This document shows positions 26,664-47,315 of a DNA stretch of 64,000 nt, one piece after another. The stretch lies in assembly GCA_039636775.1 (NCBI GenBank), contig CP143429.1, positions 1,302,001 to 1,366,000 on the forward strand, given 5' to 3'. The notes below the pieces were generated by a model. The model was not told where the DNA came from and did not search any database. It was given only the letters and a program-made list of their open reading frames with translations. The position numbers and the translations under genes were made by a program. Position 1 is the stretch's first letter, and every line of letters starts with the position of its first letter. The DNA is from Micrococcaceae bacterium Sec5.8. Lineage in GTDB: Bacteria; Actinomycetota; Actinomycetes; Actinomycetales; Micrococcaceae.

Positions 26664-27725
<1,062 letters not shown>

Positions 27726-27727
27726 GC

Positions 27728-31019: not shown

Positions 31020-31809
31020 TCCAGCGCTTCCGTGAGCCATCGCACGGCAGTCCAACGGGAAGGGGCTCCGGGTCAGTGCGTCGGGACGCGGCGACGATCC
31101 GGTTGTCGTCTCGTGGCAACGACAGCAGGGGTGCTGGGAGATGTCACGGTTGGCTTTTCGCGGCTACCGTCGCCGGTGGGTTCCGGCGGCAAAGCTCATC
31201 ATCATCGGGCTCGTTGCGGTCCCGGCTGTCGGCATTTGTGCACCACGTGGTTGATAACGCTGTTGGGCGCACGACGGTGGCGGCAGATGCCGACGCCGCA
31301 GCAGAGCGGCGCTGGGCCGGATACGGCAGTGAACCCGCCGCAGCAGGAAACCCTGCCGCGCTGGCCGTGCCCCTTCAGCAACGCCCGGAAACGACTGCAG
31401 TGCTGGCCTTTTCTGCCCCGGCCCGGGCCTGTCTACCGGGGACGCCGTCGGCGTTGCAGTCGACTTTGCGGACGTGGCCAGTGATGCCCTGCGCCGTGGC
31501 ATCAGAATCTGCTCAGCGGATCTGCTCAGCGGATCTGCTCGGCGGTCATCGAAGGGCGCGATGGAGGGCAGGACAGCGATCAACCTCGCCTGCGGGGTGA
31601 TCATTGCGCAGAGCAGGTGCTCGCAGGAGGAAGCCTCCGACGTCCTTCCTCAGGCCTCGATCAGCCGCAACCAGAAGTTGCACACCATGGCCGCAGAGAT
31701 TCTCAGGCGTTGCTTCGACACCGCCGGAACGACAACCCGTGGCCTAACAACCCGTCAAGCCGGCAGGACAGGTGCCTGGACGGGGTGCATGGATGGGGCG
31801 CAGATTTGA
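31020..31809 (+). pseudogene. Decayed GAF-ANTAR antitermination regulator
   Basis: An ANTAR-like block is readable at about 31550-31710 (MEGRTAINLACGVIIAQSRC, then SQEEASDVL). ANTAR domains bind RNA hairpins to block termination. Upstream, GAF-like pieces lie in other frames: PAALAVPLQQRPETTAVLAF in one, GDAVGVAVDFADVASDALRR in another. An earlier REPSHGSPTGR piece near 31031 may be the N-terminus. Three copies of a 13-bp repeat at 31507-31545 sit just before the ANTAR block and alone shift the frame. At least two frameshifts are needed, so no intact product is likely. Confidence 0.6.
31507..31545 (+). repeat. Tandem 13-bp repeat (3 copies) inside the ANTAR pseudogene
   Basis: ATCTGCTCAGCGG, ATCTGCTCAGCGG and ATCTGCTCGGCGG occur head to tail. 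Two extra copies add 26 bp, which shifts the reading frame. Confidence 0.85.
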
Positions 31810-32262
31810 GCCGCGGATGATGGGGCCGACACGCCTCAGAGGATGCCCTGCCGGTTCTTCCCGGCGCTGATCCCGCCCCAGTTCGTGATCGATGATCTCC
31901 AGCATCTGCCGGCTCGTGAAGTTGTCGCGAGTACCGAGTAGCTCAACCATGTTGAGCAGGATTCGGCCCACGACCGGGGCCGAGAGTTCCGGAAGCGACC
32001 GCGCCGGGTCGAGGACTGTCGGCGCCATTTTCGTGCGCGGGTGTGGGGATTCTGCGGTGAGCCGCGCTTCTGAAACGGGTAAGGACGGGGCCGGGTCGCC
32101 GAATGAGGGATGCCGGCCGGACCGGTACGCAGAGGCGATGATGGGTTCGAGTCCGTTGAGGACAGTCCGGTTCCCGGGAAGAACCACGGGGGCCAGGAAC
32201 TCCGTTCGAGGGTGGCGGTGTTTGCCGCCGCCGCTGCCGCCCAGAACTGATCGATCACCCAT
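31744..32262 (-). CDS. Hypothetical protein, weakly supported
   Basis: A 172-codon open frame on the minus strand contains LSAPVVGRILLNMVELLGTR and MLEIIDHELGRD, which look like amphipathic helices. I recognise no family. A competing 140-codon frame overlaps it. It lies in the decayed segment, so it may be a remnant. It overlaps the tail of the ANTAR pseudogene on the other strand. The 155 nt between 32263 and 32417 hold nothing I can name. Confidence 0.3.
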   Translation of the reverse strand: MGDRSVLGGSGGGKHRHPRTEFLAPVVLPGNRTVLNGLEPIIASAYRSGRHPSFGDPAPSLPVSEARLTAESPHPRTKMAPTVLDPARSLPELSAPVVGRILLNMVELLGTRDNFTSRQMLEIIDHELGRDQRREEPAGHPLRRVGPIIRGSNLRPIHAPRPGTCPAGLTGC

Positions 32263-32417
32263 GGCTGTGCCTATCCCGACGTGGTTCTGACGTCACCTGC
32301 GGCGTGAGCCGTGTTTTTGGTGCGTACCCGTGAAGACGATCCGCTGCGACCGTAACCATCATGGGCCCGATCGGCACCGCTCCTTGGCGACGGAAGGAAG
32401 GAAGGGTTTCGATTCGG

Positions 32418-34196
32418 TCATATGGATTGCCGGTAGCCAAAGAACTCGTGGTCGTTGTTGTAACCGCCCAGCCCGCCCCCGATGTCCGCAAAGCTTTCGA
32501 CGAACTCGATGGCTTGGATCCACTTCACCATTTTGAATCCGAGCTCGACTTCGTTGCGAAGGCGAAGCGGTGCCCCGTGGCCGAACGAAACGGGTGCGCC
32601 GTTCATGTCGTACGCGAGCATCGTGAGGTGGTAGCTCATCTGCTCGATGGCGTGGGCGTCATAGTAGAGACCGCCCTCCGGGCCGTTGGCGAACGAGTAG
32701 AAGACCACCCATCTGGCTTCGGGCTTTGGACGGACGGTGTCCAGGATCGTCTGCATGGAAATCCCGCCCCACTTTGCCACGCCGGACCAGCCTTGAATGC
32801 AGAAATGCTGCGTAATCTGCTCCTGATAGGGAAGTGCCCGGAGCTCCCCGAGGGACAGCTCGACCGGGTTCTCGACGAGGCCGCCGACAGCGAGCTTGAA
32901 ACCGATGAAGCCATCCGCCTGGAGTTGCTTGTACTTTGCGCTGTCGGGGTAGTTGCCGTTGTGCCAGAAATAGGGCGAGACGTCTTTCTCTGTGTACTCG
33001 CCGGGTTTCGAGTCGACATGTTCGAACAGCCGCTGAGCGGGTCCTACGAGTGCGTAACCCAGGCGTTGCACGACCCGCGGATGGCGATACGTGAACGGGG
33101 TCGCGGCGACCCACCCGACGATGATCACGACCATTGAGGCGGCGAAAATCCAGAACCCGGTCCAGGATGCCGTGTTCTGCGAAGCGTAGATGTGGTTCAG
33201 ATTGCGCAGGGCACCGGTGGTGAACACAAGAGCGACGTGAATGACGATGAAGAGGATGAACCAGCACAGCACGAAGAAGTGCAGGGACCGGGCCACCTGG
33301 ATGTTGAAGAACCGGCTCACCCAACGGAACCGGGTGGACAACGCCGGGGACATGCCGAGCCCGGTCAGGAGCGCCACCGGCGGGGCGATGAACACCGTGA
33401 TGAAGTACGCGAGAAGTTGCAGGCTGTTGTAGTTGTTCCACCCGCTCTCGACCGGCCAGCGCAGCGAGAGGTACTGAATCGCGACCGAAACGGCGTTCGG
33501 GAAAACATCCCACCGCACCGGGACCAACCGCATCCACTGTCCGGTGGTAAACAACAGGATGTAGAAGACGACGCCGTTTGCCAGCCACAGAGTGTCGATG
33601 CCCAGATGCCACCAGCGGGCCAGACCGATCGAATGCCGCCGACCCGGGAGACCGACACCGTCAGGCAGCGTGATGGAGTCCTGCTTCGCCGTATAGAGCG
33701 GGGCCGTGGGCACGGGCTTCTGCACCCGGAACCAGTCCTTGCCGGGCGTCGAGTGGCGGGTCCAATAGAGCCGCGGATGGTCTGCGAGGATCGTCACCCC
33801 GGAACGGATGATGAAGATCATGAAGAACATGTTGAGGAAGTGCTGCCAGCCGACCCACGCGGGCAATCCAACCGGAGCATTCGGCAGCGGCTGTGACTCG
33901 CCGGGATAACGCTGGAGGAAGGCCTCCACCTGAGGCAGTTCACGGATGCCCTGGGCGACCGCCACCCCGACGATTAGCAGCAGCAGCCCGATAGGGATCA
34001 GCCAGAGAAGGTTGAACCATTTGTTCTGTCCGATTCTGATTCTTGGCGCCACTCCGTATTGCGGCTGAACTCCGCCAGCCCAATGCTCGTCGACGGCAGA
34101 ATAACGGGTGGCGTCGAGCTCGCTGCGGATGCTCATCCGTGCTGCCGCGCTGAACCCTGCGGCGGGAGGAGACGGTTCATTCGAAGGTTCACTCAT
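32418..34196 (-). CDS. Membrane cytochrome b - molybdopterin oxidoreductase fusion
   Basis: The 592-residue protein joins a membrane cytochrome b-type domain to a sulfite-oxidase-fold molybdopterin domain. The membrane part is about residues 60-380. It has helices around LLWLIPIGLLLLIVGVAV, WQHFLNMFFMIFIIRSGV and LHFFVLCWFILFIVIHVALV, with histidines suited to haem ligation. The Mo domain is about 395-590. HFCIQGWSGVAKWGG carries the cysteine that ligates molybdenum in the SUOX/YedY fold, and the C-terminal part has GAPLRLRNEVELGFKMVKWI. It may reduce or oxidise a small substrate using quinone-linked electrons. The substrate is unknown. A leaderless -10 hexamer precedes the ATG. It looks intact amid decayed neighbours. 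Confidence 0.85.
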   Translation of the reverse strand: MSEPSNEPSPPAAGFSAAARMSIRSELDATRYSAVDEHWAGGVQPQYGVAPRIRIGQNKWFNLLWLIPIGLLLLIVGVAVAQGIRELPQVEAFLQRYPGESQPLPNAPVGLPAWVGWQHFLNMFFMIFIIRSGVTILADHPRLYWTRHSTPGKDWFRVQKPVPTAPLYTAKQDSITLPDGVGLPGRRHSIGLARWWHLGIDTLWLANGVVFYILLFTTGQWMRLVPVRWDVFPNAVSVAIQYLSLRWPVESGWNNYNSLQLLAYFITVFIAPPVALLTGLGMSPALSTRFRWVSRFFNIQVARSLHFFVLCWFILFIVIHVALVFTTGALRNLNHIYASQNTASWTGFWIFAASMVVIIVGWVAATPFTYRHPRVVQRLGYALVGPAQRLFEHVDSKPGEYTEKDVSPYFWHNGNYPDSAKYKQLQADGFIGFKLAVGGLVENPVELSLGELRALPYQEQITQHFCIQGWSGVAKWGGISMQTILDTVRPKPEARWVVFYSFANGPEGGLYYDAHAIEQMSYHLTMLAYDMNGAPVSFGHGAPLRLRNEVELGFKMVKWIQAIEFVESFADIGGGLGGYNNDHEFFGYRQSI

Positions 34197-34202
34197 ACGC
34201 CC

Positions 34203-34208
34203 AACCTA
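34203..34208 (-). promoter_or_regulatory. -10 hexamer TAGGTT of the leaderless Mo-cytochrome gene
   Basis: On the minus strand TAGGTT is followed by gggcgt (6 nt) and the ATG at 34196. Confidence 0.5.
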
Positions 34209-34740
34209 GCCCTCACGCGAACAAGCGCTGCATCACTCCATATCCCAGCCTCCCGCCCGTCAAGGGGACGGGGGAGGGCTTCAGGGACCTGTCACCTCGA
34301 TAGTTCTCCCCAGCCAGATGACAAATATGCTAGGGCGAGCCGTACGCAAGGGCCCCCGCGAAGGCCGTGCCGTTACGTCCGATAACCGGGCCGGGGACAG
34401 CCGGATCAACGTGGCCCCGGTGGGGCCATCGAAGCCGCCGCGGCATCCCGTCAGAGCGCGGGCCAGTTCGCGGGATCGTAGCCAAACCGTCCGCCGCAAG
34501 TTTCCCTTACTGTCGGCGCCGGGCGGTCCGCCGGAGGCTCTCGCGGGTCTTTCTGCCTGAGCGTCCGTGGTGCCGGACATGCACGCTGCCCGGCGGCGGC
34601 ACCGGGTGCGTCCTGATCTGTGGACATGCGGATTCCCCCTAGTTCATGGACTGCGTGGACACCGGCCCGATACCTGGACCGCCGTGCACCTCACAGCACG
34701 CTAGTGGCCACGGGCGGCACCGTCATAGGGGCTTTGTGCC
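34209..34740. other. Non-coding / unassigned stretch
   Basis: About 530 nt with no gene I can support. Short open frames on both strands lack family features. The tail of the alpha/beta hydrolase pseudogene begins at 34741. Confidence 0.5.
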
Positions 34741-35340
34741 TTATCCTGCCACCGCGATGACGTTCTCCGCGGAGCGGTTGTTCTCATCGATGAGCGCCGG
34801 GTCGGCATAGTTGTGGATCGTCATCAGCCGGATCTGTTCGAGGTCCCGCTCGGAGCAGACCCCGTCCGATGGTGACGAGGGCTGAGACTTCCCCGGGGAA
34901 GCGGTTCACATAGTCCAGGCTGTCGATTCCCGCCAGGGAGTGGGCTATCAGGGCGTAGGAATCGTCCACACCCGGCGTCGAGAGTGTGGCATGCAGTTCG
35001 GTGGAGATGTTCTTCACGGTGCGGTGCGGTGCAGTGCGTGACATCCAGGTCGCTGTCGCCATATCCGGACCGTTAGATCACGAGAACGGTGGAAGCGTCG
35101 TCGAGCCCGCTTATCAGGGGTGTGACGTCCGGTACCGGCGAGGCGGTGTCGTCACCGCTGAGCAGCACCACGATCTGTTTGCCCTGCCCTGTCACGGATC
35201 CGTTGACCTGGCCCCCGTCTCTGCCGATCCTCTCGTTATACGGGTGCAGCAGATTCCTTACGATGCTTCCACGGGCGGTGCCAACGGCATCCGGTTTCGG
35301 CCGCCGTCGGCGGGCACCCGGGCAGGGCCCGAGCCGGCAC
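34741..35340 (-). pseudogene. Decayed alpha/beta hydrolase
   Basis: Pieces of one hydrolase are readable in order on the minus strand, in three frames. The first is GSIVRNLLHPYNERIGRDGG, then QIVVLLSGDDTASPVPDVTP and ASTVLVI, ending in an in-frame TAA near 35074. The second begins PHRTVKNISTELHATLSTPG and holds the nucleophile elbow AHSLAGIDSLDYVNRFPGE. The third is SERDLEQIRLMTIHNYADPA followed by LIDENNRSAENVIAVAG and a stop at 34741. At least two frameshifts and one stop disrupt it. The elbow reads HSLAG, as in hydrolases with an AHSxxG motif. Confidence 0.75.
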
Positions 35341-35341
35341 G

Positions 35342-35902
35342 TCAGCGTCCCCGGCTAAGCGGGGTGTTCTCCAGGGAGCGGGCGGACGAGCGAAGCAGGA
35401 AAGCGAAGACCATGAGCAGTGCCCCGGTGAACCATCCGCCGACGGTGGACGGGACGGGCAGCCCAGACAGGAGGAGGACGCCTGGTACCACCAGTGCTGC
35501 GGACAGGACGGCGAACAGGCGCATGCCGTAGAGGAAGACGAAGGGGAGGTAGTGCGCCCCGACGATGACCATGCCAGCTGGAAAGAACAGGTCAGTGCGT
35601 CCGTCGAGCATGGCCACGATCACGAAAAAGCCGATCGGTACCGTGAACGCTATCTGCATCGCCAGGGGTGCCATCGGGTGCCCGGCCGGCAACGACGAGG
35701 GCCGTCCGGAAAGCCGAATGACGAGTGTCGTCAGCGGGTAGATCAGCATTCCACCGAAGAACAGTGCGCCGACAGCGGCCGGTGGAGAGAACCATGTGGC
35801 CGCCGCGGCGGCCACAAGCCACACCGCCCCGGACACCAGCTGACCGTAGAATCCGCCCGCATAGACGCGCCGCACATCGCGTTGGGCTGCGGCGATCGAC
35901 AC
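35342..35902 (-). CDS. Multi-pass membrane protein, probably DUF7010 family
   Basis: The 186-residue protein has about six hydrophobic segments, for example SGAVWLVAAAAATWFSPPAA, ALFFGGMLIYPLTTLVIRLS and ALLMVFAFLLRSSARSL. HYLPFVFLYGM is a conserved-looking patch. It resembles the DUF7010 family, of unknown function; I hold this name loosely. The GTG start directly abuts the stop of a 35-codon ORF (TAG-GTG), suggesting coupled translation. It looks intact, unlike its immediate neighbours. Confidence 0.65.
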   Translation of the reverse strand: MSIAAAQRDVRRVYAGGFYGQLVSGAVWLVAAAAATWFSPPAAVGALFFGGMLIYPLTTLVIRLSGRPSSLPAGHPMAPLAMQIAFTVPIGFFVIVAMLDGRTDLFFPAGMVIVGAHYLPFVFLYGMRLFAVLSAALVVPGVLLLSGLPVPSTVGGWFTGALLMVFAFLLRSSARSLENTPLSRGR

Positions 35903-36010
35903 CTATCCGGCCCTGCCCGTCAGGGCGGATTCCACTGGGACCAGGTCGGTGTGCGCGATAGACCCGCAGGCCATCCTGACCCTGTCAATGTGCACGCGCG
36001 CTTCGACCAT
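35903..36010 (-). CDS. Possible 35-residue ORF upstream of the DUF7010-like gene
   Basis: ATG at 36010 preceded by GGGGGAAG gives MVEARVHIDRVRMACGSIAH and 15 more residues. The stop touches the next GTG. It could be a small coupled ORF or the remnant of a larger gene. No family is recognised. The 240 nt from 36011 to 36252 hold nothing else I can support. Confidence 0.3.
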   Translation of the reverse strand: MVEARVHIDRVRMACGSIAHTDLVPVESALTGRAG

Positions 36011-36252
36011 GATTCTTCCCCCGGATTCGGCCGTGGCGGCCGTTGGCCCCACTCTAGACCCCATGAGGTGTGGTGGCTCCGATGCAGGGCTGCAACCACA
36101 GGCACTGCAGCTGTGAGGGCCATACCGCCGGCGTGGAACCCGAGGACGCCTGACGCGGTGGCGTGCAGGGGTGGCGTCCTCCCTGGTTGGAGCAGGGGCG
36201 GGGTTCCTACTACTCCTGCTATTGACTGACGATGCTCGGTGGTGCTCCAGCT

Positions 36253-37002
36253 TCATGCCACCTTGAGGGCCGGGGCGCTGACCGCAGGGCCGGTCGTGGC
36301 GAGGCGATTGCGCAAGAACAGAATGTAGGGGATCATCACGGCCGCGATGATTCCTACCGTCACGGAGTCCCCGACCACGGAGTGCGCGGTAATCGTGCCG
36401 CTGATGTTGAACAGGATGTGGAAGGCAACGCCGGGCATGATGCTCCCGGTGAGCGCCACGCAGTATGCCAGGGCAATGCCGATGAGCACTGCCGCGACCA
36501 CCTGCAGGGCCTGGTCAGTGGGCGAGTATCCCCGCAGGAGGTTAACGATGTGCCCCAGGCCGAAGGTGACTCCTGAAATGATGATCGCGCGGGTGAAGCT
36601 GCCGCGCGTCCGCAGCGCCTGGAGCAGGAAACCGCGGAAGAGGAGCTCCTCAATGAAACCCACGGCCGCCATCAAAAGAATCGCGAAGACGATGGCTTCC
36701 AGGTCAAGTCCGGGCGCGAATCCTTTGGTGTACGCCAGGAATGCGATCGCGAATAGAGGAAGGTAGAAGAGCGTGGGTGGCAGTGTGCCGGGCTGCACGG
36801 GACACACCCCGTAGAACGTAAGCCGGCCACCCACGCGCAGGTAGATGATGAGCACGATCGACAGAATAATCAGCACGATGCCCGTGAGGCCGGGGAAGCC
36901 GAGTGCTTCCCCGATGATGTCGCCGATGTTAACGGCGACGAGGTAGATCGCAATCCAGATCAGTGCGTGCCCGATGGGCTTGGTGTCCTTTAGCTTGCGC
37001 AT
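36253..37002 (-). CDS. CPBP-family intramembrane glutamic endopeptidase
   Basis: The 249-residue protein has about eight TM helices and the CPBP/Abi motifs. These are FIEELLFRGFLLQAL (EExxxR with the catalytic Glu) and VTFGLGHIVNLLRGY (His), followed by MPGVAFHILFN (third motif). Members process CAAX-like or peptide substrates, and some confer bacteriocin immunity. GGAGTCAC precedes the ATG at 37002. It lies just after (on this strand) a broken ABC-2 permease, and the pair is reminiscent of bacteriocin export/immunity loci. Confidence 0.85.
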   Translation of the reverse strand: MRKLKDTKPIGHALIWIAIYLVAVNIGDIIGEALGFPGLTGIVLIILSIVLIIYLRVGGRLTFYGVCPVQPGTLPPTLFYLPLFAIAFLAYTKGFAPGLDLEAIVFAILLMAAVGFIEELLFRGFLLQALRTRGSFTRAIIISGVTFGLGHIVNLLRGYSPTDQALQVVAAVLIGIALAYCVALTGSIMPGVAFHILFNISGTITAHSVVGDSVTVGIIAAVMIPYILFLRNRLATTGPAVSAPALKVA

Positions 37003-37199
37003 GTGACTCCTCCGATGGGTGATCCGCGATAGCGGGTCTTGGCCGGACTATGTATCTTGCCGGGACTGGGTGAGCTGCCGGGGTTCGCGGCGTGGGGTTC
37101 CAGAGCAGATGGTGGAAGCGTTCAGGAAAAGCCGTCAACGCCCGCGCGTGCCGGCGGGGACGGAGTCGTTTCCCGGTGAGGGCGTTGCGTTTGCGGAAG

Positions 37200-37884
37200 G
37201 TTCCGGCGAGGGAGAGTTTGCCTGAGTATTGGATGGATCCGTAGCGGAAGAGGTGGACGGCGAAGCGGAGGATGAGGAACCCGATGACGAGGAACCCGAT
37301 GACGAGGGTGGCCTTGAGGGTGCTGAGGGTCCCGATGCCGTTGCGAAGCATGGCGGTCACGGGGGTCGAGAGCGGGAAGTACGTGAAGATCTGCACGATG
37401 GGTGCCCGGTGGTCCAAGAGGATAAGAGTCACGGCGAAGAAAGGGGACGAAAATCAGGGCCATGAGAGGGGTCCGAAGATCGTTCCGGCGTCTTTGGCGG
37501 TGGGCATGATCGCGCCGATCGCGACGAGACACCGGTGAAGTCCGTGAAGCCTCCGATGAGCAGCAGCGCTCCGACGATCATGGTCCATGGTTCGAAGCTG
37601 AGGTGGGAGAGGTCGACGTCGGGGAGGGCGAGTTTTTCCCGGAAGAAGAGGTAGCCGATGACGACGAGGGTCTGAAAGACCAGGATTTGGGCGAGGCTGA
37701 CCATGAAGCGGGCGATGACTTTGCCAACGATCAGTGTGGTGGGGTTCAGGGTGGTGAGGACCATTTCGGTGACCCGGTTCTCTTTTTCCTCCAAAGTCGA
37801 GTTGAGCATCTGGCTGGAGAGCAGAATGATCGAGACGTAGTCCTGAAGGTGTATCAGCGGACCGGCCGCGTCCCCCAACGTCAT
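37200..37884 (-). pseudogene. Broken ABC-2 type transporter permease (NatB-like)
   Basis: The C-terminal half of an ABC-2 permease is readable. It begins YVSIILLSSQMLNSTLEEKE and continues NRVTEMVLTTLNPTTLIVGK and FMVSLAQILVFQTLVVIGYL. After a frameshift near 37540 comes AIGAIMPTAKDAGTIFGP, then LMALIFVPF, and after another, VTLILLDHRAPIVQIFTYFP. The C-terminus is SIQYSGKLSL near 37205. The first half (about 200 residues) and the ATPase gene are missing. At least three frame changes and a 5' truncation make it non-functional. The exact right boundary is uncertain. Confidence 0.8.
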
Positions 37885-37958
37885 GCCCTCACTCTAACCG
37901 GGGTGCACAAGGGTGCCATGTGGCCCTGCCGCACGCTCCCGTGCCGTACCGTGAGCCC

Positions 37959-38144
37959 ATGGACTCTCCCCAAAGACCGCGGCTGCGGGTAGTCGCCTTC
38001 ATCGCTGCGGTGGTGCTCGGTACAACCGTGGTCATCGTCTTAACGCGCTGGGTGACTGGTTCCTGGTCCACCGGCGCGACGGCCGGAGTCATTGCCGGCA
38101 CACTGTCCGCAGCAATGTACCCGCTCCTGTTTCGCAAGCGCTGA
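37959..38144 (+). CDS. Small membrane protein
   Basis: The 61-residue ORF starts MDSPQRPRLRVVAFIAAVVL. It has two hydrophobic helices separated by a short hydrophilic turn (TRWVTGSWSTGA), ending in LLFRKR. I know of no family. A longer in-frame start lies 39 nt upstream without a ribosome binding site. It looks intact and has an ordinary topology for small actinobacterial membrane proteins. Confidence 0.45.
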   Translation: MDSPQRPRLRVVAFIAAVVLGTTVVIVLTRWVTGSWSTGATAGVIAGTLSAAMYPLLFRKR

Positions 38145-38198
38145 CCGCCCCTAACCAACGGAAGTCACGCCAATCCATTTTCCCGACCAGGGCGTGGT

Positions 38199-38633
38199 CT
38201 GACCGCAACCACGACCGGCACCGTCACGACCGGCACCGTCACGACCGGCACCGCTGAGCCCGTAGCCGCACCGGTTCTTCCCGCGGACGACAGGGCAGGC
38301 GACGGGTACAACTGGGTGGACACCCTCGAAGTCACGCCGTGGTTTGGGCTGCCGGGGCAGCGAAGGCTGGGACGCCGGATCCTGGCCCTGCATCATCTTC
38401 GCCGTCGCCCGCACCCGCGATGAGGACGGGAACTTGTTCGGCTATGGCACCTGCGTCGAAGGCGACGTCTCCACGCACTGGTTCCGGGCCCAGGTCCCTT
38501 GTTGAGAAGCGATCACCGCCGACGTGTTCTTCCACTGGGCATCCGGCCAGTCCCACGGTCCGGACAACCTCCCGCCACCGCCACCGACCTGCCGGACCCG
38601 GCTCGGAAGCTCTACCCCGGCTGGACAGACTAA
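38199..38633 (+). pseudogene. Frameshifted remnant of an unidentified protein
   Basis: Three consecutive frames give consistent protein-like text. The first is TGTVTTGTAEPVAAPVLPAD followed by DRAGDGYNWVDTLEVTPWFG. The second is GSEGWDAGSWPCIIFAVART followed by RDEDGNLFGYGTCVEGDVST and HWFRAQVPC-stop. The third is ITADVFFHWASGQSHGPDNL, and a final frame gives DLPDPARKLYPGWTD-stop. Three frame changes break it. It looks like an aromatic-rich cytoplasmic protein of unknown role. Confidence 0.6.
38211..38255 (+). repeat. Tandem 15-bp repeat (3 copies)
   Basis: ACGACCGGCACCGTC occurs at 38211 and 38226, and ACGACCGGCACCGCT at 38241. In the pseudogene frame it encodes TTGTV repeats. Confidence 0.85.
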
Positions 38634-38797
38634 AAGTGCTCCGGTGCTCCGGCCGGGACACCCGAAAGGTACACCGACATCCGTGGACACAGCATTGAGA
38701 TTCCTTCGCTTCGAAGAAGCTGACGAAGCGTGTGCTGTCGATTCCGTGTCTCCGGTGCCCCAGCAGCGGTGGGATCAGGATTGTCGGTGCCCCGGTT

Positions 38798-38803
38798 TAG
38801 TCT
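38798..38803 (+). promoter_or_regulatory. -10 hexamer TAGTCT of the leaderless 13E12 gene
   Basis: TAGTCT, then gaaggt (6 nt), then the GTG at 38810. Confidence 0.45.
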
Positions 38804-38809
38804 GAAGGT

Positions 38810-40657
38810 GTGAAGAGCGGGGAAGCTTTGAGCAGGGAGTGCGTGGAGGCGGTGGGTGCCGTTGCCGGCTCTGTTGCGGCGCTTGCCGCGATCTTCGGGG
38901 CGGACCTGCCCGGTGGGGGGCCGGGTTCCGCGGAGCCGGGCGGGGCGGGTGGGGATCTGTTGCGGGACGTCGCGGATGCGTGTCTGGAGGGGTTGGCTGA
39001 GGTGGCGCGGTTGGAGGCCCGGGCCGCGGCGGTGAAGGTCCGGTTGACCGGTGAGTATGTCCGGGCCGCGGAGGCACTGGCCCCGCCGGCGGTCTCGCCG
39101 CAGCAGCGCACCGCGTGGGAGATGGCGGTCGTGGCGGAGGTCGCGTGTGTGTTGACGGTCAGCGAACGTGCTGCCGGGGCTTTGATCTGCGAGTCCCGGG
39201 CACTGTGCTCGGGGTTGCCGTTGACTCTGGCGGCGTTGCAGGCCGGGGAGTTGTCCTGGCAGCACGCCCGGGTCATGGTCGGGGAGAGCACCGGCCTGGA
39301 CCGGGGAGGGACGGCCGGGCTGGAAGCGCATTTTTTGGATCCCGCGGCGCCGAACCCGGCCCGGGGCTGCCCGGCCGGGGAGCTTGTCCCGGGCCGGTTC
39401 CGGGCCAAAGCCCGGACCTGGCGTGAACGCCACCACCCGGTCAGTATCGAGGCCCGGCACGCGACCTGCGTCGGGGACCGGCGGGTGGAGTTCGTCCCGG
39501 ACCGGGATGGCATGGCCTGGTTCTCGGCCTACCTCCCGGCCGTGACCGCGTCCGCGGCCTGGGACCGGGCCACCACCGCCGCGCGCGCCCTTCAGGGCCC
39601 GGCCGAGACCAGGACCTTGACCCAGCTCCGCGCTGACATCACCGCGGCGTGGCTGCTGACGGGCGGGACAGATCGAACGGATGCCACGGGTGGAACGGAT
39701 GGAACGGATGGAACGGATGGAACGGGTGGAACGGGTGGGACGGGGACAGGGGGTGTGCCGTCGCCGCGGGCGCAGGTCCTGATCACCGTCCCGGTGCTCT
39801 CACTGCTCGGTCTTACCGGGGAACCGGCGGTGTTGGACGGGTACGGGCCGGTTCCGCCGTCGGTGGCCCGCCGCCTGGTCGCCGACGGGTCCGGGTCCTT
39901 TTACCGGGTCCTGACCGATCCCCGCGACGGGGCACCGTTGGAGATCGGCCGGAGCAGTTACCGGCTCACCACCTCCCAGCGGCAGTGGCTGCGGCTCCGG
40001 GACGGGAAGTGCCCCTTTCCAGGGTGTAACAATGCTTCCCTGGACAACGAAGCAGACCACCTGTTGGCCTGGGCCGACGGCGGCACCACCGGGATCACGA
40101 ACCTCGGCCAGCCCTGCCGCAAACACCACCGCCTCAAACACACCTCAGCCTGGACACCCACCGGGGCCAGCAAAAACCACCCGCCCGGATGGACCTCACC
40201 AATGGGACGGCGGTACCCCAGCGAATCCCAGGACTGGGAACCACCACCCTGGCCAGCCATCCTCGCAGCACTGACCCAGCCCCCGGACCGGGGCTCCCCG
40301 GCGGAGAAGACCCCGGACCGGCAAGCGGACCCGGGGCCGCCACTGGACAACGGCCAGGGCCGGACACCGCCCGCGGACGAGGAACACGACACGGACCTGG
40401 ACTGGAACCCGCCACCGGACCAGGAACACGACACGGACGTGGACTGGGACCCGCCACCAGACGAGAGACAGGGCTGGGACCCGCCCGCGGACGAGGAACA
40501 GGACACGGACGTGGATTGGAACCCGCCACCAGACAAGAACCCGGGCTGGGACCTGGACGCGGAGCTGGACTCGGGACTGCCGCCGGACCCCGGCCCGGAC
40601 CCCGACCAGGAACTCCCCGTCGACCCTCTACCCGCAAAGTACCAACCCGCGGCCTGA
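38810..40657 (+). CDS. 13E12-repeat family protein (DUF222) with C-terminal HNH nuclease domain
   Basis: The 615-residue protein has a DUF222 helical region (about residues 15-330). The HNH motif starts at Cys401 (CPFPGCNN), with EADHLLAWADGGTT and CRKHHRLKH as the His-Asn-His-type metal and catalytic residues. An acidic tail (about 475-615) repeats DTDVDWNPPPD-like units. A Thr-Asp-Gly repeat lies near 295-312 from a 9-bp DNA repeat. The family is multi-copy in actinobacteria, of unknown role. Several M. tuberculosis members carry SOS boxes, but I see none here. The large size suggests an intact copy. It could be a mobile-element-associated nuclease. Confidence 0.88.
   Translation: MKSGEALSRECVEAVGAVAGSVAALAAIFGADLPGGGPGSAEPGGAGGDLLRDVADACLEGLAEVARLEARAAAVKVRLTGEYVRAAEALAPPAVSPQQRTAWEMAVVAEVACVLTVSERAAGALICESRALCSGLPLTLAALQAGELSWQHARVMVGESTGLDRGGTAGLEAHFLDPAAPNPARGCPAGELVPGRFRAKARTWRERHHPVSIEARHATCVGDRRVEFVPDRDGMAWFSAYLPAVTASAAWDRATTAARALQGPAETRTLTQLRADITAAWLLTGGTDRTDATGGTDGTDGTDGTGGTGGTGTGGVPSPRAQVLITVPVLSLLGLTGEPAVLDGYGPVPPSVARRLVADGSGSFYRVLTDPRDGAPLEIGRSSYRLTTSQRQWLRLRDGKCPFPGCNNASLDNEADHLLAWADGGTTGITNLGQPCRKHHRLKHTSAWTPTGASKNHPPGWTSPMGRRYPSESQDWEPPPWPAILAALTQPPDRGSPAEKTPDRQADPGPPLDNGQGRTPPADEEHDTDLDWNPPPDQEHDTDVDWDPPPDERQGWDPPADEEQDTDVDWNPPPDKNPGWDLDAELDSGLPPDPGPDPDQELPVDPLPAKYQPAA
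39691..39744 (+). repeat. Tandem 9-bp repeat (6 copies) in the 13E12 gene
   Basis: TGGAACGGA three times, TGGAACGGG twice and TGGGACGGG once, encoding a Thr-Asp/Gly-Gly run. The unit keeps the frame, so copy number can vary without loss of function. Confidence 0.9.
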
Positions 40658-40699
40658 AAGGACCCTCGGCGAGCACGTGGAGAAAAGAATCCCCCGAGT

Positions 40700-42085
40700 T
40701 TAGTCGCTGCCTGGCAAGGGTGGCAGCGCTTCCTGATACAACCACGGGTGAAGGAGAGTTTCGGTGTCGAGCCCGGTCGCATGGTCAGCGGTAAGGATGA
40801 ACTGCGCCGTCGAGACAGAGCCATGACGGTTCTGGCCGGCCCAGTCGTGGAGCAGGGAGAAAAATGCCAGGTCGCCGCAGCGCAGGCGCAGGGCATGCAG
40901 TGCCAAGGCGCCGCGTTTATAGACGCGGTCATCGAACATGAGCTCCGGTCCAGGGTCGCCCACCAGCAAGTCCTGCTTGCCGGCCTTGAGTTTCCGCCAC
41001 GCACCTGCCGCGCGGCGCGCCACAGACATAATGCCGGCTTCCTCGGACCAGATCCATTCCGCGTAGCAGGCGAATCCCTCGTGGAGCCAGATGTCCTTCC
41101 ATGAGGCCGCCGTCAGCGAATTGCCGAACCACTGATGGGACAATTCATGGGCAATGAGCCGCTGGGACTCCCAGTCCTGCGTCAAGTGGTTGGGACCGAA
41201 GATGGACAGGCTTTGCGCTTCCAATGGGATTTCCAGGTCGTCCCCGGTCACCACGGCCGTGTATTCCGAAAAGGGGTAGGGCCCGAAACAATCGATGAAG
41301 GTGCGCATCATCTCGGGTTGTCGCGTCAGCCCCGCGCGGGCCATATCCGCCAGCACCGCCGGAACGGCCGCATACTGCGGTACGTGGGATTCCGGATGGC
41401 CGGGATTGAGCACCAGGAGTTCATAGCGGCCGATTTGTACTGTGGCGAGGTAGGTGGACATGGGCTCGGTTTGCTCATAGATCCAGGTCTCGCGGCTCGA
41501 CCGGCTGGTACGGGAGACCAGGAGGCCATTGCACACGGCCCGGTAGTTGGCGTCGGTGGTCACCGAAATCCGGTAGCTTGCCTTGTCCAGCGGGTGGTCG
41601 TTGCAGGGAAACCAGGACGGCGCGCCGTTGGGCTGCCCGGCCACGAGCACCCCGTCGGTCAGTTCTTCCCAGCCCACTTCGCCCCACAAACCCCGGCGGG
41701 GAGAAGGGTTGCCCTCGTAGCGGATATCCAGGATGAAGTCCTCGCCCGGGAGCAATGCGGCCTCGGGAACCACGACGAGCTGGTCGGCCCGGTGGCTGAA
41801 CTTTCGAACCTTTCGGCCGCCGAGCTGAATCTTCGTGGCCCGGAGCCCGGTCAGATCCAGGACGATGGCCGACGTCGGCCGCTGGGTCACGCCGTGGACC
41901 ACAGCGCGCCCGTTCAGGCGGTTGCTGCTGAGCTTATAGTCCAGCTCGATTTCATAACGGGTAACACGGTAGGCGTCGGTGCCATGCCCTGGCAAGTAAG
42001 GATCCGGAGAGACGGCGGGTTGATCGGAGGACGGGAGTCCTCCGGTGCCAGCGGCAGCGGTGGAACTCTGGGGGCTGGAACTCAT
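40700..42085 (-). CDS. M1-family metallopeptidase
   Basis: Zinc aminopeptidase of the gluzincin M1 type. The 461-residue protein has HELSHQWFGNS followed by exactly 18 residues and the Glu of LHEGFACYAEW (HExxH-x18-E). The N-terminal beta domain precedes the catalytic domain, and no signal peptide is seen. At 461 aa it is roughly half the size of aminopeptidase N, lacking the C-terminal helical domain. I chose the ATG at 42085 (MSSSPQSSTA) rather than an upstream in-frame one. It begins 44 nt after the synthetase stop on the same strand, so co-transcription is likely. It may trim or hydrolyse the synthetase product. Confidence 0.88.
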   Translation of the reverse strand: MSSSPQSSTAAAGTGGLPSSDQPAVSPDPYLPGHGTDAYRVTRYEIELDYKLSSNRLNGRAVVHGVTQRPTSAIVLDLTGLRATKIQLGGRKVRKFSHRADQLVVVPEAALLPGEDFILDIRYEGNPSPRRGLWGEVGWEELTDGVLVAGQPNGAPSWFPCNDHPLDKASYRISVTTDANYRAVCNGLLVSRTSRSSRETWIYEQTEPMSTYLATVQIGRYELLVLNPGHPESHVPQYAAVPAVLADMARAGLTRQPEMMRTFIDCFGPYPFSEYTAVVTGDDLEIPLEAQSLSIFGPNHLTQDWESQRLIAHELSHQWFGNSLTAASWKDIWLHEGFACYAEWIWSEEAGIMSVARRAAGAWRKLKAGKQDLLVGDPGPELMFDDRVYKRGALALHALRLRCGDLAFFSLLHDWAGQNRHGSVSTAQFILTADHATGLDTETLLHPWLYQEALPPLPGSD

Positions 42086-42129: not shown

Positions 42130-45100
42130 CTACTTCGACGTGGGGGATGGCGCAGCAGGCCCACCCCACGGACTGACCGGATTACCCATCCAGTACGTCC
42201 CGGCGGGCACCGTCTCACCCCGCATCACGAGGGACGCCGGGCCCACCGTGCCGCCCTTGCCGATCCGGGCCTGCGGAAGGATCACTCCGTGCGGGCCCAT
42301 CGTTGCCCCATCTTCGAGCGTAACAGTGTCAATGCTCATCACGCGGTCGTGGAACAAATGGGTCTGGACGACGCAGCCCCGGTTGACCGTGGAGTTCTTC
42401 CCCAGGGTCACGAGGTCTGCTTCGGGCAGCCAATAGCTTTCGCACCAGGTGCCGGCGCCGATCTTTGCGCCGAGGGCCCGGAGCCACCAGACCAAGGCCG
42501 GTGTTCCGGTGGCGGAGCGGGCGAACCAGGGGGCGCTGACCATTTCGATGAACGTGTCAACCACCTCGTTGCGCCAGATGAAAGAGCTCCACAGCGTGTG
42601 CTCGCCGGGTTTGATGCGTCCCACCAGCAACCATTTCGCTACGACGGCGCTGCCGGCAGCCACGGCGCCGGCGATCAGGACCACGACGCCGCCCAAGAGT
42701 GCCGCGACGCCGTAATTGGAGACCGCGGCAAGCCAATCGAGGGCAATCAAGACGCCGGCCGCGATCGCAACCGTCGCCACGACCGGGACGAAGCGGCACA
42801 GTTCCCACAGCGCGCGGGCGATCTTTAGTTTCCGTGGCGGCTGGTACGTCCTGGTGTCATCGGAGGCGATGGCGGTGCGCCGGAGCCGGACCGGCGGGCT
42901 GCCCAACCAGGAAGTCCCGGACTTCGATTTTGCCGGGGTAGCGGAAAGCACTGCCACCAGGGAGTTCTTGGGCACACTGCGTCCGGCCGCGGTCATCCCG
43001 GAGTTGCCGAGGAACGAGCGTTTGCCGATCTTGGCGGGGGCGATCCGCAACCACCCGCCGTCGAGTTCGTAGGTGGCCACCATGGTGTCGTCGGCAAGGA
43101 ATGCGCCCTCGCCCACCGTGGTCATCTTCGGGATCAGCAGAACAGTTGACGCTTCCACGTTTTTGCCGATTCTGGCGCCGAGCAGACGCAGCCAAACAGG
43201 CGTGAAGAGGCTGGCATAGATGGGAAAGAGCAGGTCTCGGGCCATGTCCAGCACCCGCTCGGTCGCCCAGACCTGCCAGCCGATCCTGCTGCGCACCCGG
43301 TAGTAGCCTTCGGCCAGCCCCGCGCCGAGAAGTCGGGTGGTGGCAAGGATCAGCACAAGGTTTAAAAGGAACCAGACCAGGGCTGCCGGCGGCAGAGACA
43401 GCAGGACCTGGGGGAGCGCGGCCGTCAGTGATTCGCTGCCCCGGATGAACGCGAAGACCACAGAAGCTGCCCCGGCAGCGGACAGAAAGGGGATCAGGGC
43501 CAGGGCGGCGGAGGCGGTGGCGAAGCCGGCGAACCAGAGCCGGCCGATCAGCGGATTCTCCGGGGGAGTGTCCGGCCAGGTGTGCTTGGCTTTGCCCCGC
43601 CGCTCAGCGGGAGACCCCGACACGAGTTGGCCGGCCTTCACCTTGCCCAGCACGGCCGATCCGGCGGCCACCTGGGCCCCGGCTCCGATGGTGGCACCGG
43701 GCATCAGAGTGCTGCGGCTGCCGACCGCAGCGCCGGGCCCGATGTGGATGGCGCCGATGTGGACGATGTCGCCGTCGATCCACCAGCCGGAAAGATCGAC
43801 TTCAGGTTCAATGTTGCAACCGCTGCCAAGCGAGAGCAGGCCGGTAACGGGAGGCAGTGAGTGGAGCTGGACGTTGTGGCCGATTTTCGCCCCGAGGGCC
43901 CGGGCGTAATAGGGCACCCAGGGGGCGCTGGCCAGGCTGACCGCGCCTGCCAGGTCCTGGATCTGCTCCGCCAGCCAGAGGCGGAGATGCACCCGGCCGG
44001 AGCGTGGGTAGGCTCCCGGGACCACCCCGCGGAGCAGTAGGCGGGCGGCGGAGACGGAGATCAGCATCCGGCCGGCAGGGCTGACGAAAACGAGCCAGGA
44101 GGCCGCGACCCACCACCAGGACACGGTGGGCGCAGCCGTGAAACCGGCAAAGGAGAAGAGCAGGTTGTTAGCAGCCATGAGATATGTCAGCCAGCGCATG
44201 CCTACCAGGAGGTGCAACGGTATGCCCATGAGCGTCTGAAAGACCTGCGATTTGCGGGCCGTGGGCCGGACTGTGCGCTCCGGGACCGGAACCAGTCCTC
44301 CGTCGGGCAGCGACTGTCGCGCGGTGTCGATGAGCGCCCCGACCCGGGGGGTCGCGTAAATGTCCGCAACCGTGATGGTGGGAAAGCGCACGCGAAGGGC
44401 GGACACAAGCTGCGCAGCGGCCAGCGACCCGCCCCCGTAGGCGAAGAAGTCGGCGTCGAGGCTGGACACCGCATTCCCCAGCACCGCGCTCCACTGCTCC
44501 ACGATCCACGAGGCATCCTCAGGAAGGTTCAACGGGGCCGCATCGGCGCCGGCAGCGCCGGCGCCGGCCAGCGGCCACGGCAGCGCACGGCGGTCCACCT
44601 TGCCGCTGGTCTTGGTGGGCAGCGAATCAACGACTGTCAGCAGCGGGATGAGCGCAGCCGGCAGGCTTTCACCGAGGGCTTCCCGGGCGGCGGCCAGATC
44701 GAGCCCGCGTCCCTCTGCCGCTGCGAGGTATCCGACGAGGATCTGGTTGCCGGCCGCCGTTGTCTGCACCGTCGCCGCCGCGCCGGCGACATCAGGCAGA
44801 GCCTGCAGGGCGGCATCGATCTCGCCCAACTCAATCCGGCGTCCACCGAGCTTGACCTGCTCATCGGCGCGGCCCTGGAAAATCAGCCCCTCAGCTTCAT
44901 AGCGGACCAGGTCTCCGGAGCGGTACGCACGGGTCCAGCCCAGCGACGGCATGGGGGCATATTTCTCGGCGTCCTTCGCCGGGTCCAGGTACCGGGCCAG
45001 GCCAACGCCGCCAATGATCAGTTCACCGATCTCGCCTTCGCCGACAGGTACGGCGTTGGCGTCGACGACGGCGAGGTCCCAGCCGTCCAGGGGAAGGCCG

Positions 45101-46095
45101 ATCCTGATCGGACCGGGACCGCCCATCCGGGCGGCGCAGGCGACGACTGTGGCCTCGGTGGGTCCGTACGTGTTCCAGACCTCGCGACCCTCGACGGCCA
45201 GCCGTTCGGTGAGCTCCGGCGGGCAGGCTTCCCCGCCGAAGATGAGCAGGCGGACGCTCTCCAGAGCCTCTACCGGCCAGAGAGCGGCGAGGGTGGGCAC
45301 AGTGGAGACGACCGTGATGCCGTGGCTGATCAGCCACGGGCCGAGGTCCATGCCCGTCCGGACGAGGGCCCGCGGCGCCGGCACAAGGCAGGCGCCGTAC
45401 CGCCAGGCGAGCCACATCTCCTCACAGGAGGCGTCGAAAGCAACGGACAGTCCAGCCAGGACACGGTCCTGCGGGCCGATCGGATCGTCCTGGAGGAAAA
45501 GCCGGGCCTCGGCGTCAACGAAGGCTGCCGAGGACCGGTGCCGCACCGCGACGCCCTTGGGGGTCCCCGTGGACCCGGACGTGAAGATCACCCAGGCGTC
45601 GTCCTCCGGGCCGGGGAGCCGGGGAGCGGGAAACGGGCGGGGGCGCAAGCTGTTCGTCACGATCTCGCCGCCGCGCAGGACACCGGCCACCCTCGCCTCA
45701 CCGAAGACGAGTTTGGCCCGTTCATTGGGATCATCGGCGTCCACCGGGACATAGGCCGCCCCAACCATCAGGATGGCCAGGATGGAGACGTAGAGCAGGT
45801 TGGAGCCGGACGGAATCCGGACGCCGATCTTGTCGCCCGCTCCCAGGCCGGCGGCGTGGAGCTCCCGCGCCTTGGCCCGGACCGCTACCAACAGCTGGGC
45901 ATAACTGAGCGACTGATGCCCGTCATCGAGCGCAGAGGCATCCGGGAAACGCCCGGCCGTGTCCTTCAGGATGTCAACGAGCGTCCGCTCCGGCGGCGTC
46001 GCCAGGGTGCCCGCAAGCTGCGCCTGGAAGGCCGCTCCGGCAGTGGCAGCAGCCCGCGGAAGGTCGCTGTGCTGGGTTTGTTGTTGCTCAGTCAC
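42130..46095 (-). CDS. Pls/PosA-family non-ribosomal peptide synthetase
   Basis: The 1321-residue membrane synthetase has three parts. The adenylation domain (about 40-510) has FTSGSTGTPKGVAVRH, NTYGPTEATVVACA, GRADEQVKLGGRRIELGEID and TKTSGKVDRRALPW. A carrier domain (about 535-600) has the phosphopantetheine serine in FFAYGGGSLAAAQLV. The last 700 residues alternate TM segments with three hexapeptide-repeat (LbH) blocks, e.g. GAIHIGPGAAVGSRSTLMPG, GARIGKNVEAST and GPHGVILPQARIGKGGTVGP. This A-T-membrane-triple-condensing layout matches epsilon-poly-L-lysine synthetase (Pls), which is also about 1.3 kb in residues. The amino acid polymerised cannot be told. No termination or release domain is present, as in Pls. 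Confidence 0.9.
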   Translation of the reverse strand: MTEQQQTQHSDLPRAAATAGAAFQAQLAGTLATPPERTLVDILKDTAGRFPDASALDDGHQSLSYAQLLVAVRAKARELHAAGLGAGDKIGVRIPSGSNLLYVSILAILMVGAAYVPVDADDPNERAKLVFGEARVAGVLRGGEIVTNSLRPRPFPAPRLPGPEDDAWVIFTSGSTGTPKGVAVRHRSSAAFVDAEARLFLQDDPIGPQDRVLAGLSVAFDASCEEMWLAWRYGACLVPAPRALVRTGMDLGPWLISHGITVVSTVPTLAALWPVEALESVRLLIFGGEACPPELTERLAVEGREVWNTYGPTEATVVACAARMGGPGPIRIGLPLDGWDLAVVDANAVPVGEGEIGELIIGGVGLARYLDPAKDAEKYAPMPSLGWTRAYRSGDLVRYEAEGLIFQGRADEQVKLGGRRIELGEIDAALQALPDVAGAAATVQTTAAGNQILVGYLAAAEGRGLDLAAAREALGESLPAALIPLLTVVDSLPTKTSGKVDRRALPWPLAGAGAAGADAAPLNLPEDASWIVEQWSAVLGNAVSSLDADFFAYGGGSLAAAQLVSALRVRFPTITVADIYATPRVGALIDTARQSLPDGGLVPVPERTVRPTARKSQVFQTLMGIPLHLLVGMRWLTYLMAANNLLFSFAGFTAAPTVSWWWVAASWLVFVSPAGRMLISVSAARLLLRGVVPGAYPRSGRVHLRLWLAEQIQDLAGAVSLASAPWVPYYARALGAKIGHNVQLHSLPPVTGLLSLGSGCNIEPEVDLSGWWIDGDIVHIGAIHIGPGAAVGSRSTLMPGATIGAGAQVAAGSAVLGKVKAGQLVSGSPAERRGKAKHTWPDTPPENPLIGRLWFAGFATASAALALIPFLSAAGAASVVFAFIRGSESLTAALPQVLLSLPPAALVWFLLNLVLILATTRLLGAGLAEGYYRVRSRIGWQVWATERVLDMARDLLFPIYASLFTPVWLRLLGARIGKNVEASTVLLIPKMTTVGEGAFLADDTMVATYELDGGWLRIAPAKIGKRSFLGNSGMTAAGRSVPKNSLVAVLSATPAKSKSGTSWLGSPPVRLRRTAIASDDTRTYQPPRKLKIARALWELCRFVPVVATVAIAAGVLIALDWLAAVSNYGVAALLGGVVVLIAGAVAAGSAVVAKWLLVGRIKPGEHTLWSSFIWRNEVVDTFIEMVSAPWFARSATGTPALVWWLRALGAKIGAGTWCESYWLPEADLVTLGKNSTVNRGCVVQTHLFHDRVMSIDTVTLEDGATMGPHGVILPQARIGKGGTVGPASLVMRGETVPAGTYWMGNPVSPWGGPAAPSPTSK

Positions 46096-46252
46096 GGGGA
46101 AATCGTCTCCGGCTTAGGTGAACGGAAGGTTATCCGGCGTCGCACGTGCGTTAACGGTGCCGCTCGTGTGTTAATACCGTGCGTCGGCCCGGACGAACGC
46201 ACCAGAGTCCCATTATGTGCCTGGAATCTCAGGCGCGGACCCGGGGACCGGT

Positions 46253-47218
46253 TCAGGGAACCAGGAGGACTTTTCCAGTGGTGCGCCGCTGCTCCAGGTC
46301 ATCATGCGCCTGGGCGGCTTCGGCAAGGTCGTAGCGGGCGCCGACCCGGACCTTGAGGGACCCGTCGGCAACCGAGGCGAAGAGCTCATCCGAACGCCAG
46401 CGGCGCTCCTTGGCGTCACGCAGGAAATGCACGATCGTCGGCCGCGTCAGGTACAGCGAGCCGCTGGCGTTGAGCCGCTGCGGATCGAAGGGGGGCACCG
46501 GACCGGACGCGGCGCCGAAGAGAACAAGGGTCCCGCGGATGCGAAGGGAGGCCAGGGACCCGTCAAAGGTGTCCTTCCCGACGCCGTCGTACACCACATG
46601 CGCGCCGGCGCCGCCGGTCAGCTCGCGGACCCTGACGGCGAAGCCCTCGTAGCGCAGCACATGGTCAGCGCCGGCTTCCCGGGCCAGCGACTCCTTCTCG
46701 TCGGTAGAGACGGTGGTGATGACGTGGGCACCCCGGGCTTTGAGCAGCTGGATCAGCAGGAGTCCGACGCCGCCCGCTCCGGCATGCAGCAGGACCGTGT
46801 GGCCCGGCTCCACTTTGAACGAGGAGTTGATCAGGTAGTGCGCAGTAATGCCCTGCAGCGGCAGAGCCGCGGCCGTGAAGTCGTCCACACCGGCGGGGAC
46901 CGGCAGCGCCTTGTCCTCATCGATCAGGGTGTAACCGGCGTAGCAGTTGGCGCCTTCGGCCGTGGCCACCCGGTCACCGGATGAAAAACCGGTCACTCCG
47001 GCGCCGATCTCCGCCACAGTTCCGGAGGCCTCGGAGCCTGGGGTGAAGGGGTAACCCACCTTGTAGCTGCCGCTGCGTTTGTAGGTGTCGATAAAGTTCA
47101 CGCCGATGGCGGCAACCTTCACCAGCAGCTGGCCGGGTCCCGGGACCGGGCGCTCCACCTCCGACAGCTCAAGGACCCGGGGGCCGCCGGATTCGCGGGC
47201 GACGATTGCATGCATCAT
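46253..47218 (-). CDS. NADPH:quinone reductase-like zinc-independent MDR oxidoreductase
   Basis: The 321-residue protein has the quinone oxidoreductase signature GIHCGDWLL-like N-domain (AAIGVNFIDTYKRSGSYK). The nucleotide-binding stretch is HAGAGGVGLLLIQLLKARGA. It lacks the structural zinc cysteines, as expected of the zeta-crystallin/QOR branch. It probably reduces quinones or enones with NADPH. AAGGAG lies upstream of ATGATG, so the start could be 47218 or 47215. The 157 nt between this gene and the synthetase hold its promoter region and nothing else I recognise. Confidence 0.88.
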   Translation of the reverse strand: MMHAIVARESGGPRVLELSEVERPVPGPGQLLVKVAAIGVNFIDTYKRSGSYKVGYPFTPGSEASGTVAEIGAGVTGFSSGDRVATAEGANCYAGYTLIDEDKALPVPAGVDDFTAAALPLQGITAHYLINSSFKVEPGHTVLLHAGAGGVGLLLIQLLKARGAHVITTVSTDEKESLAREAGADHVLRYEGFAVRVRELTGGAGAHVVYDGVGKDTFDGSLASLRIRGTLVLFGAASGPVPPFDPQRLNASGSLYLTRPTIVHFLRDAKERRWRSDELFASVADGSLKVRVGARYDLAEAAQAHDDLEQRRTTGKVLLVP

Positions 47219-47315
47219 GTGACTCCTTGCTGGGCTGGGATCCCTCGGCGCGGATTCCGGGCCGCAAATACCGGCCCTCATCCTGTCCCCATCCTAAGGA
47301 CACCGGCACCAACGA

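Follow-up and report, generated by a model that had tools for sequence, protein, structure and literature searches.

A predicted epsilon-poly-L-lysine synthetase with a linked M1 peptidase and a PHO-box-like promoter in a Micrococcaceae genome

The epsilon-poly-L-lysine synthetase Pls of Streptomyces albulus is encoded in an operon with pldII, the product of which degrades the polymer (PMC8117764, PMC9223678). The homologous enzyme of Corynebacterium variabile, from an operon that includes a peptidase, gave epsilon-poly-lysine when expressed in Streptomyces coelicolor, and Arthrobacter is listed among the genera with Pls homologues (PMC8117764). The core of the system described here is therefore already known. 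We have analyzed a window of 64,000 nucleotides (nt) from Micrococcaceae bacterium Sec5.8 (contig CP143429.1, positions 1,302,001 to 1,366,000), in which a synthetase gene of this type at 42130..46095 is followed by one for an M1-family metallopeptidase. A first-pass annotation had proposed a candidate poly-amino-acid system at this position and left the substrate open. Our analysis supports that proposal, and the locus very probably encodes a lysine-specific Pls with a linked PldII-like peptidase. What is new is the substrate prediction for this locus, a third gene in the cassette (a phosphopantetheinyl transferase), an M1 enzyme that lacks an export leader and a PHO-box-like pls promoter; the last three were not met in the literature examined. 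The principal elements are as follows.

42130..46095, minus strand: pls, predicted epsilon-poly-L-lysine synthetase, 1321 residues, GTG start (open reading frame and TIGR02353)
44563..46029, minus strand: adenylation domain, residues 23-511 (65% identity to the adenylation domain of PDB 7wew)
44326..44508, minus strand: peptidyl carrier domain, residues 530-590, with phosphopantetheine serine S557 (PF00550)
42175..44244, minus strand: membrane polymerisation part, residues 618-1307 (TIGR02353 over its full length)
40700..42085, minus strand: M1-family metallopeptidase, PldII-like, 461 residues, ATG at 42085 (Pfam Peptidase_M1 and M1_N)
46113..46134, minus strand: PHO-box-like 11-bp direct repeat GATAACCTTCC-GTTCACCTAAG, 17 nt from the repeat to the GTG start

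The adenylation domain points to lysine. When the synthetase was compared with PDB sequences using phmmer, S. albulus Pls (7wew) gave 656 bits and the next adenylation domain 376, and the identity to 7wew extends over 490 positions. The ten pocket positions were chosen via motif alignment, following PheA numbering. They are D221, A222, E225, S264, I285, G287, T309, V317, V318 and K499, giving DAESIGTVVK, and all ten match 7wew; the specificity residues agree with the lysine enzyme of S. albulus and not with another ligase. The same pocket is found in 139 of 144 aligned rows, which include 7wew itself and, three times over, the window gene. Of the remaining five, a Kocuria row deviates at a single position and four rows, all of them other synthetases, have DFECLSVVTK (L002 and L066 being the same gene). 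Alanine at pocket position 2 goes with lysine, methionine with ornithine, and phenylalanine with diaminopropionate or diaminobutyrate (PMC10522769). Since the pocket is the same as that of 7wew and has alanine at position 2, the substrate of Pls in this strain is most likely L-lysine. The lysine pocket is also present in L083, L084, L089, L103 and L136, of which four are Kitasatospora loci and the fifth is a similar locus from Streptomyces.

The remainder of the protein conforms to the family. The NCBIfam model TIGR02353 ('Pls/PosA family NRPS') matches residues 618-1307 with 706.6 bits against a cut-off of 423.1, and at these scores chance is no issue for the assignment. Pfam identifies an AMP-binding domain at residues 44-368 and the carrier, with neither a thioesterase nor a classical condensation domain among its matches. 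The first-pass annotation was thus correct in seeing a Pls/PosA-type synthetase with an adenylation domain, a carrier bearing the phosphopantetheine serine and no thioesterase. Its transmembrane helices and three hexapeptide-repeat blocks stand in part. From Pfam and TIGR02353 taken together the architecture is an adenylation domain, a carrier and a membrane part with three tandem blocks, and the profile is matched in full; the Pfam hexapeptide match (783-815) is sub-threshold, and a crude hydropathy scan gave two strong transmembrane pairs (849-929 and 1095-1161) with weaker stretches at 663-695 and 955-973. For six helices and three hexapeptide blocks the family profile therefore carries more weight than the scan. 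Invariant positions of the membrane part among 34 aligned sequences include W1174, E1177, Q1244, H1246 and D1250.

The M1 gene begins exactly 44 nt beyond the pls stop codon on the same strand, as first noted. The HEXXH-18-E active site is formed by H313, E314, H317 and E336, together with Y389, and the motif and the tyrosine are kept in all 121 M1 entries, of which three are the window's own. Leaving the window aside, 136 Pls-clade entries remain, and in 123 of them an M1 gene directly follows pls in the same orientation (139 were examined, three being the window's own locus; L059 and L109 are the same protein). Four of the 13 misses are at contig ends (L076, L120, L122 and L123), and in L095 the M1 gene is about 2 kb away; the other eight are discussed below. 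All 20 genus loci of 16 kb have the M1 gene behind pls. Under a stricter rule the counts by locus set are 27/27, 28/29, 67/80, 20/20 and 0/23, where some of the 20 genus loci also belong to the set of 27, and in the 27 loci L009-L035 the synthetase is present from about residue 120 onwards. Among 150 genomes of the genus, TIGR02353 exceeds its cut-off in 123 and a strong M1 match (E <1e-90) is found in the same 123; the other 27 are without both, and there are no mixed cases. The linkage in relatives on which the first-pass annotation had made its proposal depend therefore holds in most Pls-clade loci, and fails in 23 Corynebacterium-like loci. Chance adjacency of the two genes was dropped as an explanation given the co-occurrence. 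The protein distances of Pls and M1 are correlated (r = 0.915 over 116 loci, reached by 0 of 999 permutations), which species relatedness alone could also give.

The identity of pldII provides the connection to function. The locus L074 encodes an adenylation domain with 92% identity to the piece in 7wew, and there the beginning of M1 and the end of pls share 4 nt. Because this matches the 4-bp overlap reported for S. albulus pldII (PMC4361855), pldII is most likely a member of this M1 family. If it is, the zinc sites D44, T45, D173 and K174 taken from a model of PldII (PMC9223678) do not fit HEXXHX18E. By analogy with PldII, it is likely that the M1 enzyme of the window acts on epsilon-poly-lysine.

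Where it would do so may differ. PldII is located outside the membrane in S. albulus (PMC9223678), while no export leader was seen in the window M1 using a hydropathy heuristic; we have therefore called it PldII-like and not PldII. The same heuristic finds a twin-arginine-like (RR) leader in 8 of 138 loci, on M1 enzymes of S. albulus-type Streptomyces, and none in the others. The screen flagged 11 of the 138, with clear RR leaders in L074, L075, L077, L078, L079, L081 and L082; L037, L054, L094 and L133 were judged not to be RR leaders, and L092 has one just below the threshold. Thirteen entries were left out as repeats; L165 and L179 are not repeats, and both lack an RR leader. Given the absence of a leader, the M1 enzyme probably works in the cytosol. 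This suggests that, in contrast to the S. albulus model, most lineages with the pair break down the polymer intracellularly.

The cassette has a third probable member. The further features at this site are:

30376..30978, plus strand: phosphopantetheinyl transferase, third cassette member (PF01648, synteny)
30979..40699, no strand: about 9.7 kb between transferase and M1, a probable insertion (genus relatives lack it)
27536..30271, plus strand: pheT, left neighbour of the cassette site (synteny)
46253..47281, minus strand: quinone-oxidoreductase-like gene, right neighbour of the cassette site (Pfam, synteny)

The transferase is 11.2 kb from pls, confirming the distance of about 11 kb given earlier, and only one other PF01648 gene was found in the genome. 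It lies behind M1 in convergent orientation in 18 of 20 genus loci (the exceptions are L157 and L164), with 18 to 128 nt between the M1 and transferase matches except in L171, where the distance is 1.6 kb. On the far side of the transferase is pheT in 17 of the 18, and beyond pls are the oxidoreductase gene and argC in 19 of 20. Eight of the pls-less genomes of the genus were examined at this site. In five of them pheT and the oxidoreductase gene abut, their matches 83-120 nt apart, and pls, M1 and the transferase are jointly missing from the site; the other three have different DNA there. Elsewhere, the transferase is near pls in at least 7 of 133 other loci (L099, L107, L121, L147, L153, L106 and L119), a lower bound as many loci have short flanks and distant transferases can be missed. 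From the synteny in the genus loci we regard the transferase as the third member of the cassette, and a mere proximity to pls was dropped. The 9.7-kb stretch is read as an insertion because no gap of comparable size occurs in the 18 relatives. It contains a molybdopterin oxidoreductase, a CAAX protease and a DUF222 gene; no tRNA was found in the 64-kb window. To judge by this linkage the transferase is likely to serve Pls, and would be the likely activating enzyme for heterologous expression of the synthetase; a literature search for the two together gave one review.

Alignment of upstream regions reveals a conserved block that ends shortly before the pls start codon. The actinobacterial PHO box is an 11-bp direct repeat with a GTTCACC/GTTCATC core in S. 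coelicolor (PMC4415409, PMC9019756). In the window repeat the second half has GTTCACC exactly, and the first has GATAACC, with two differences from the core. A box is found in 22 of the 24 upstream regions of the genus and close kin (L157 has none and L147 has other GTTCAC repeats), a figure that is partly circular since the training sites of our matrix were picked with a GTTCA-like regular expression. There were 21 such sites; the window, the pstS and phoU genes of the same genome, 100 other loci and 62 further loci were outside the training. The pls site scores 21.0, and the next best place in the 64 kb scores 10.2. The pstS (TIGR00975) promoter carries the same repeat with a score of 13.8, and phoU (TIGR02135 over its cut-off) has a box scoring 8.2 in the direction of the gene and 9.9 on the other strand. 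Beyond the genus and its close relatives, 13 of the 100 loci score at least 13 near the pls start, compared with 7 of 7090 control tiles; L099 (6.6), L107 (19.1), L121 (7.8) and L147 (6.8) count as close relatives and are not part of the 100. A loose consensus with one mismatch gives 10 matches in the genome against four for a reversed control, the window site and phoU being among the 10. On these scores the putative box is conserved in the genus and recurs sporadically elsewhere, and it is not general. Phosphate control of the pls operon is on balance the reading suggested by the promoter, and the pls mRNA is possibly leaderless. Upstream of the box, at 46141-46174, are two TTAAC-headed 14-bp repeats, one with the palindromic CGCACGTGCG; the repeat TTAACACACGAGCG / TTAACGCACGTGCG is, as a pair, absent from the other upstream regions.

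The genome contains a second Pls/PosA-family synthetase, of 1422 residues and with the pocket DFECLSVVTK (L066:4697-11915, corresponding to G000:C1 2540696-2547914). Genes for aspartate kinase and diaminobutyrate transaminase share its strand; further upstream are an M28 peptidase gene and a major facilitator superfamily gene. To judge by its genes, this locus has the content of a gamma-poly-diaminobutyrate cluster. No M1 match was found in the 16 kb examined there, and it is without a PHO-like box, its best score being 10.0 at about 6 kb from its start. Relatives in the genus have a split Pls-like system (L067:1727-8522 and L071:2044-9012, with similar loci in L072 and L073), in which three tandem carriers are fused to the Pls membrane part and there is a separate A-T (adenylation and carrier) protein with DIWQSTADDK or DIWQCTTDDK at the pocket positions; L067 and L071 also have a pyridoxal phosphate enzyme. 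The split system has no match in the genome of the window.

We can propose how the parts might work together, taking the product and the enzyme roles from the literature on the S. albulus and C. variabile homologues. The transferase would charge the carrier of Pls, the adenylation domain would activate L-lysine and load it there, and the membrane part would link the lysines via the epsilon-amino group and export the chain. The M1 enzyme, probably translated from the same message as pls, would hydrolyse epsilon-poly-lysine, most likely clearing polymer or aborted chains within the cell, for self-protection and the recycling of lysine. A PhoP-type regulator bound to the 11-bp repeats would probably activate the operon at low phosphate. 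Our own observations contribute the family, the identity of the pocket, the gene linkage, the co-occurrence, the heuristic absence of a leader and the repeat. From these we infer the use of lysine in this strain, the cytosolic M1, the service of the transferase to Pls and the control by phosphate.

Might the synthetase make another cationic homopolymer, such as gamma-poly-diaminobutyrate, poly-diaminopropionate or delta-poly-ornithine? Such enzymes belong to the same family (PMC10522769), and the second synthetase of this genome has a different type of pocket. Yet the pocket of Pls is that of the lysine enzyme, with alanine and not phenylalanine or methionine at position 2; Pls adjoins M1 and the oxidoreductase gene while dat and ask adjoin the second synthetase, and the adenylation domains of the two proteins are just 34% identical. 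A product other than epsilon-poly-lysine is thus highly improbable. The M1 enzyme might instead be a general aminopeptidase, merely co-transcribed and inactive on the polymer. Its closest solved relative is an M1 zinc metalloprotease (6a8z/6iff), it lacks a leader to reach the site of polymer accumulation, and the 23 Corynebacterium-like loci have Pls without it. We consider this unlikely, since M1 is coupled to the synthetase in its presence and absence over the 150 genomes, the gene order is kept over much of the class, and the enzyme corresponds to the polymer-degrading PldII (PMC8117764, PMC9223678). Several points nonetheless weigh against our preferred account of a lysine-specific Pls with a linked PldII-like peptidase and its regulation. 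C. variabile itself yielded no polymer in culture (PMC8117764). The genus genomes are related, so that the co-occurrence counts are not independent. No M1 gene is present within 1.5 kb of pls in any of the 23 Corynebacterium-like loci, and none was found in the flanks of L083, L084, L089, L103, L136, L042 (with 1.5 kb of flank visible), L080 and L111. From the Corynebacterium-like, Kitasatospora-type and other loci without it, M1 appears to be dispensable for Pls. In the pls-less genomes the transferase was looked for at the cassette site only.

Other points of this kind concern the promoter, where the block could belong to an ordinary promoter or bind a different regulator. It sits at the expected -35 region, and most of the other taxa scored are without the putative box. 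The box scores low in L099, L121 and L147, and also in four loci from three further genera of this family; 3 of 62 loci of the further set reach 13 (63 loci, with L216 left out for want of a match), none of the three being among the 23 Corynebacterium-like loci, and it is absent from the loci of S. albulus type that were scored (1.6 at most). The level of 8.2 reached by phoU is attained at about seven places in the window, and the 10 consensus matches are by our reading mostly intragenic, with the window site itself needing the mismatch. Set against this are the 11-bp repeat with the core described in S. coelicolor (PMC4415409, PMC9019756), and the same repeat in the pstS promoter of this genome with a weaker one at phoU. 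A site other than a PHO box is quite possible, and we lean towards the PHO box.

Polyphosphate kinase 2 genes recur beside pls elsewhere. Matches lie downstream of pls in convergent orientation in 14 of the 23 Corynebacterium-like loci (L231-L253), 12 of them within 9-223 nt of pls; those in L245 and L251 are partial and further off. TIGR03707 is over its cut-off for the three proteins tested. Three Arthrobacter-type loci also have the gene by or near pls: L099 (6046-6867, about 110 nt upstream on the same strand), L121 (12350-13183) and L157 (12382-13269). Polyphosphate kinases have been used to engineer S. albulus for a higher supply of ATP to epsilon-poly-lysine (PMC10012588). A rather doubtful but broader idea is that outside Streptomyces epsilon-poly-lysine is part of phosphate and polyphosphate physiology, as a PhoP-induced cassette of pls, cytosolic M1 and transferase in this genus, and as pls beside ppk2 in Corynebacterium-like bacteria. 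If so, the polycation could be a counter-ion or mobiliser of polyphosphate, or a weapon freeing the phosphate of neighbours, with an intracellular M1 keeping the polymer from the cytosol. Among the papers listed in our searches, titles and abstract openings contained no report of epsilon-poly-lysine with phosphate control or polyphosphate kinase, which is weak evidence of novelty. The C. variabile authors suspected an unknown trigger for polymer production (PMC8117764), and the PHO-box-like site points to phosphate limitation as a candidate trigger in the genus of the window.

How general are such synthetases? Matches to the window Pls at E <=1e-150 occur in 89 of 297 genomes of its order and, for the family of G255, in 276 of 301, a few of them distant at 34-35% identity. 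Pls-like synthetases are thus common in non-filamentous actinobacteria.

Several known systems share elements with this locus. PosA of Acinetobacter baumannii, which makes delta-poly-ornithine, has the same domain layout as Pls, with the pocket DMEHNGTVSK in a single-gene operon (PMC10522769). The gamma-poly-diaminobutyrate cluster pldA-dat-ask uses a synthetase of the same family and has its counterpart elsewhere in this genome; the type is marked by DFECLSVVTK, with phenylalanine at position 2, and by dat and ask neighbours, whereas the window synthetase has DAESIGTVVK and lacks these genes directly beside it. The short 474-residue M1 enzyme 6a8z/6iff, Deinococcus M1dr, matches nearly the whole window M1 with 190 bits; it is not known to be linked to a synthetase. 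C. variabile Pls is of the same family and has the polymer described at the outset as its product. The window differs from the Corynebacterium-like loci, in which M1 is missing within 1.5 kb and polyphosphate kinase 2 often lies downstream; C. variabile, with a peptidase in its operon, may differ from those loci, or our reading of their genus may be wrong. The closest likeness is to pls-pldII of S. albulus, with which the locus shares the synthetase layout, the pocket and a same-strand M1-type peptidase directly downstream, the M1 identity of pldII being deduced from L074. It differs in the spacing of the two genes, which are 44 nt apart here and overlap by 4 bp in S. albulus, and in having an M1 enzyme without the twin-arginine-like leader, a linked transferase, and a PHO-box-like promoter of a kind unseen in S. 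albulus-type loci.

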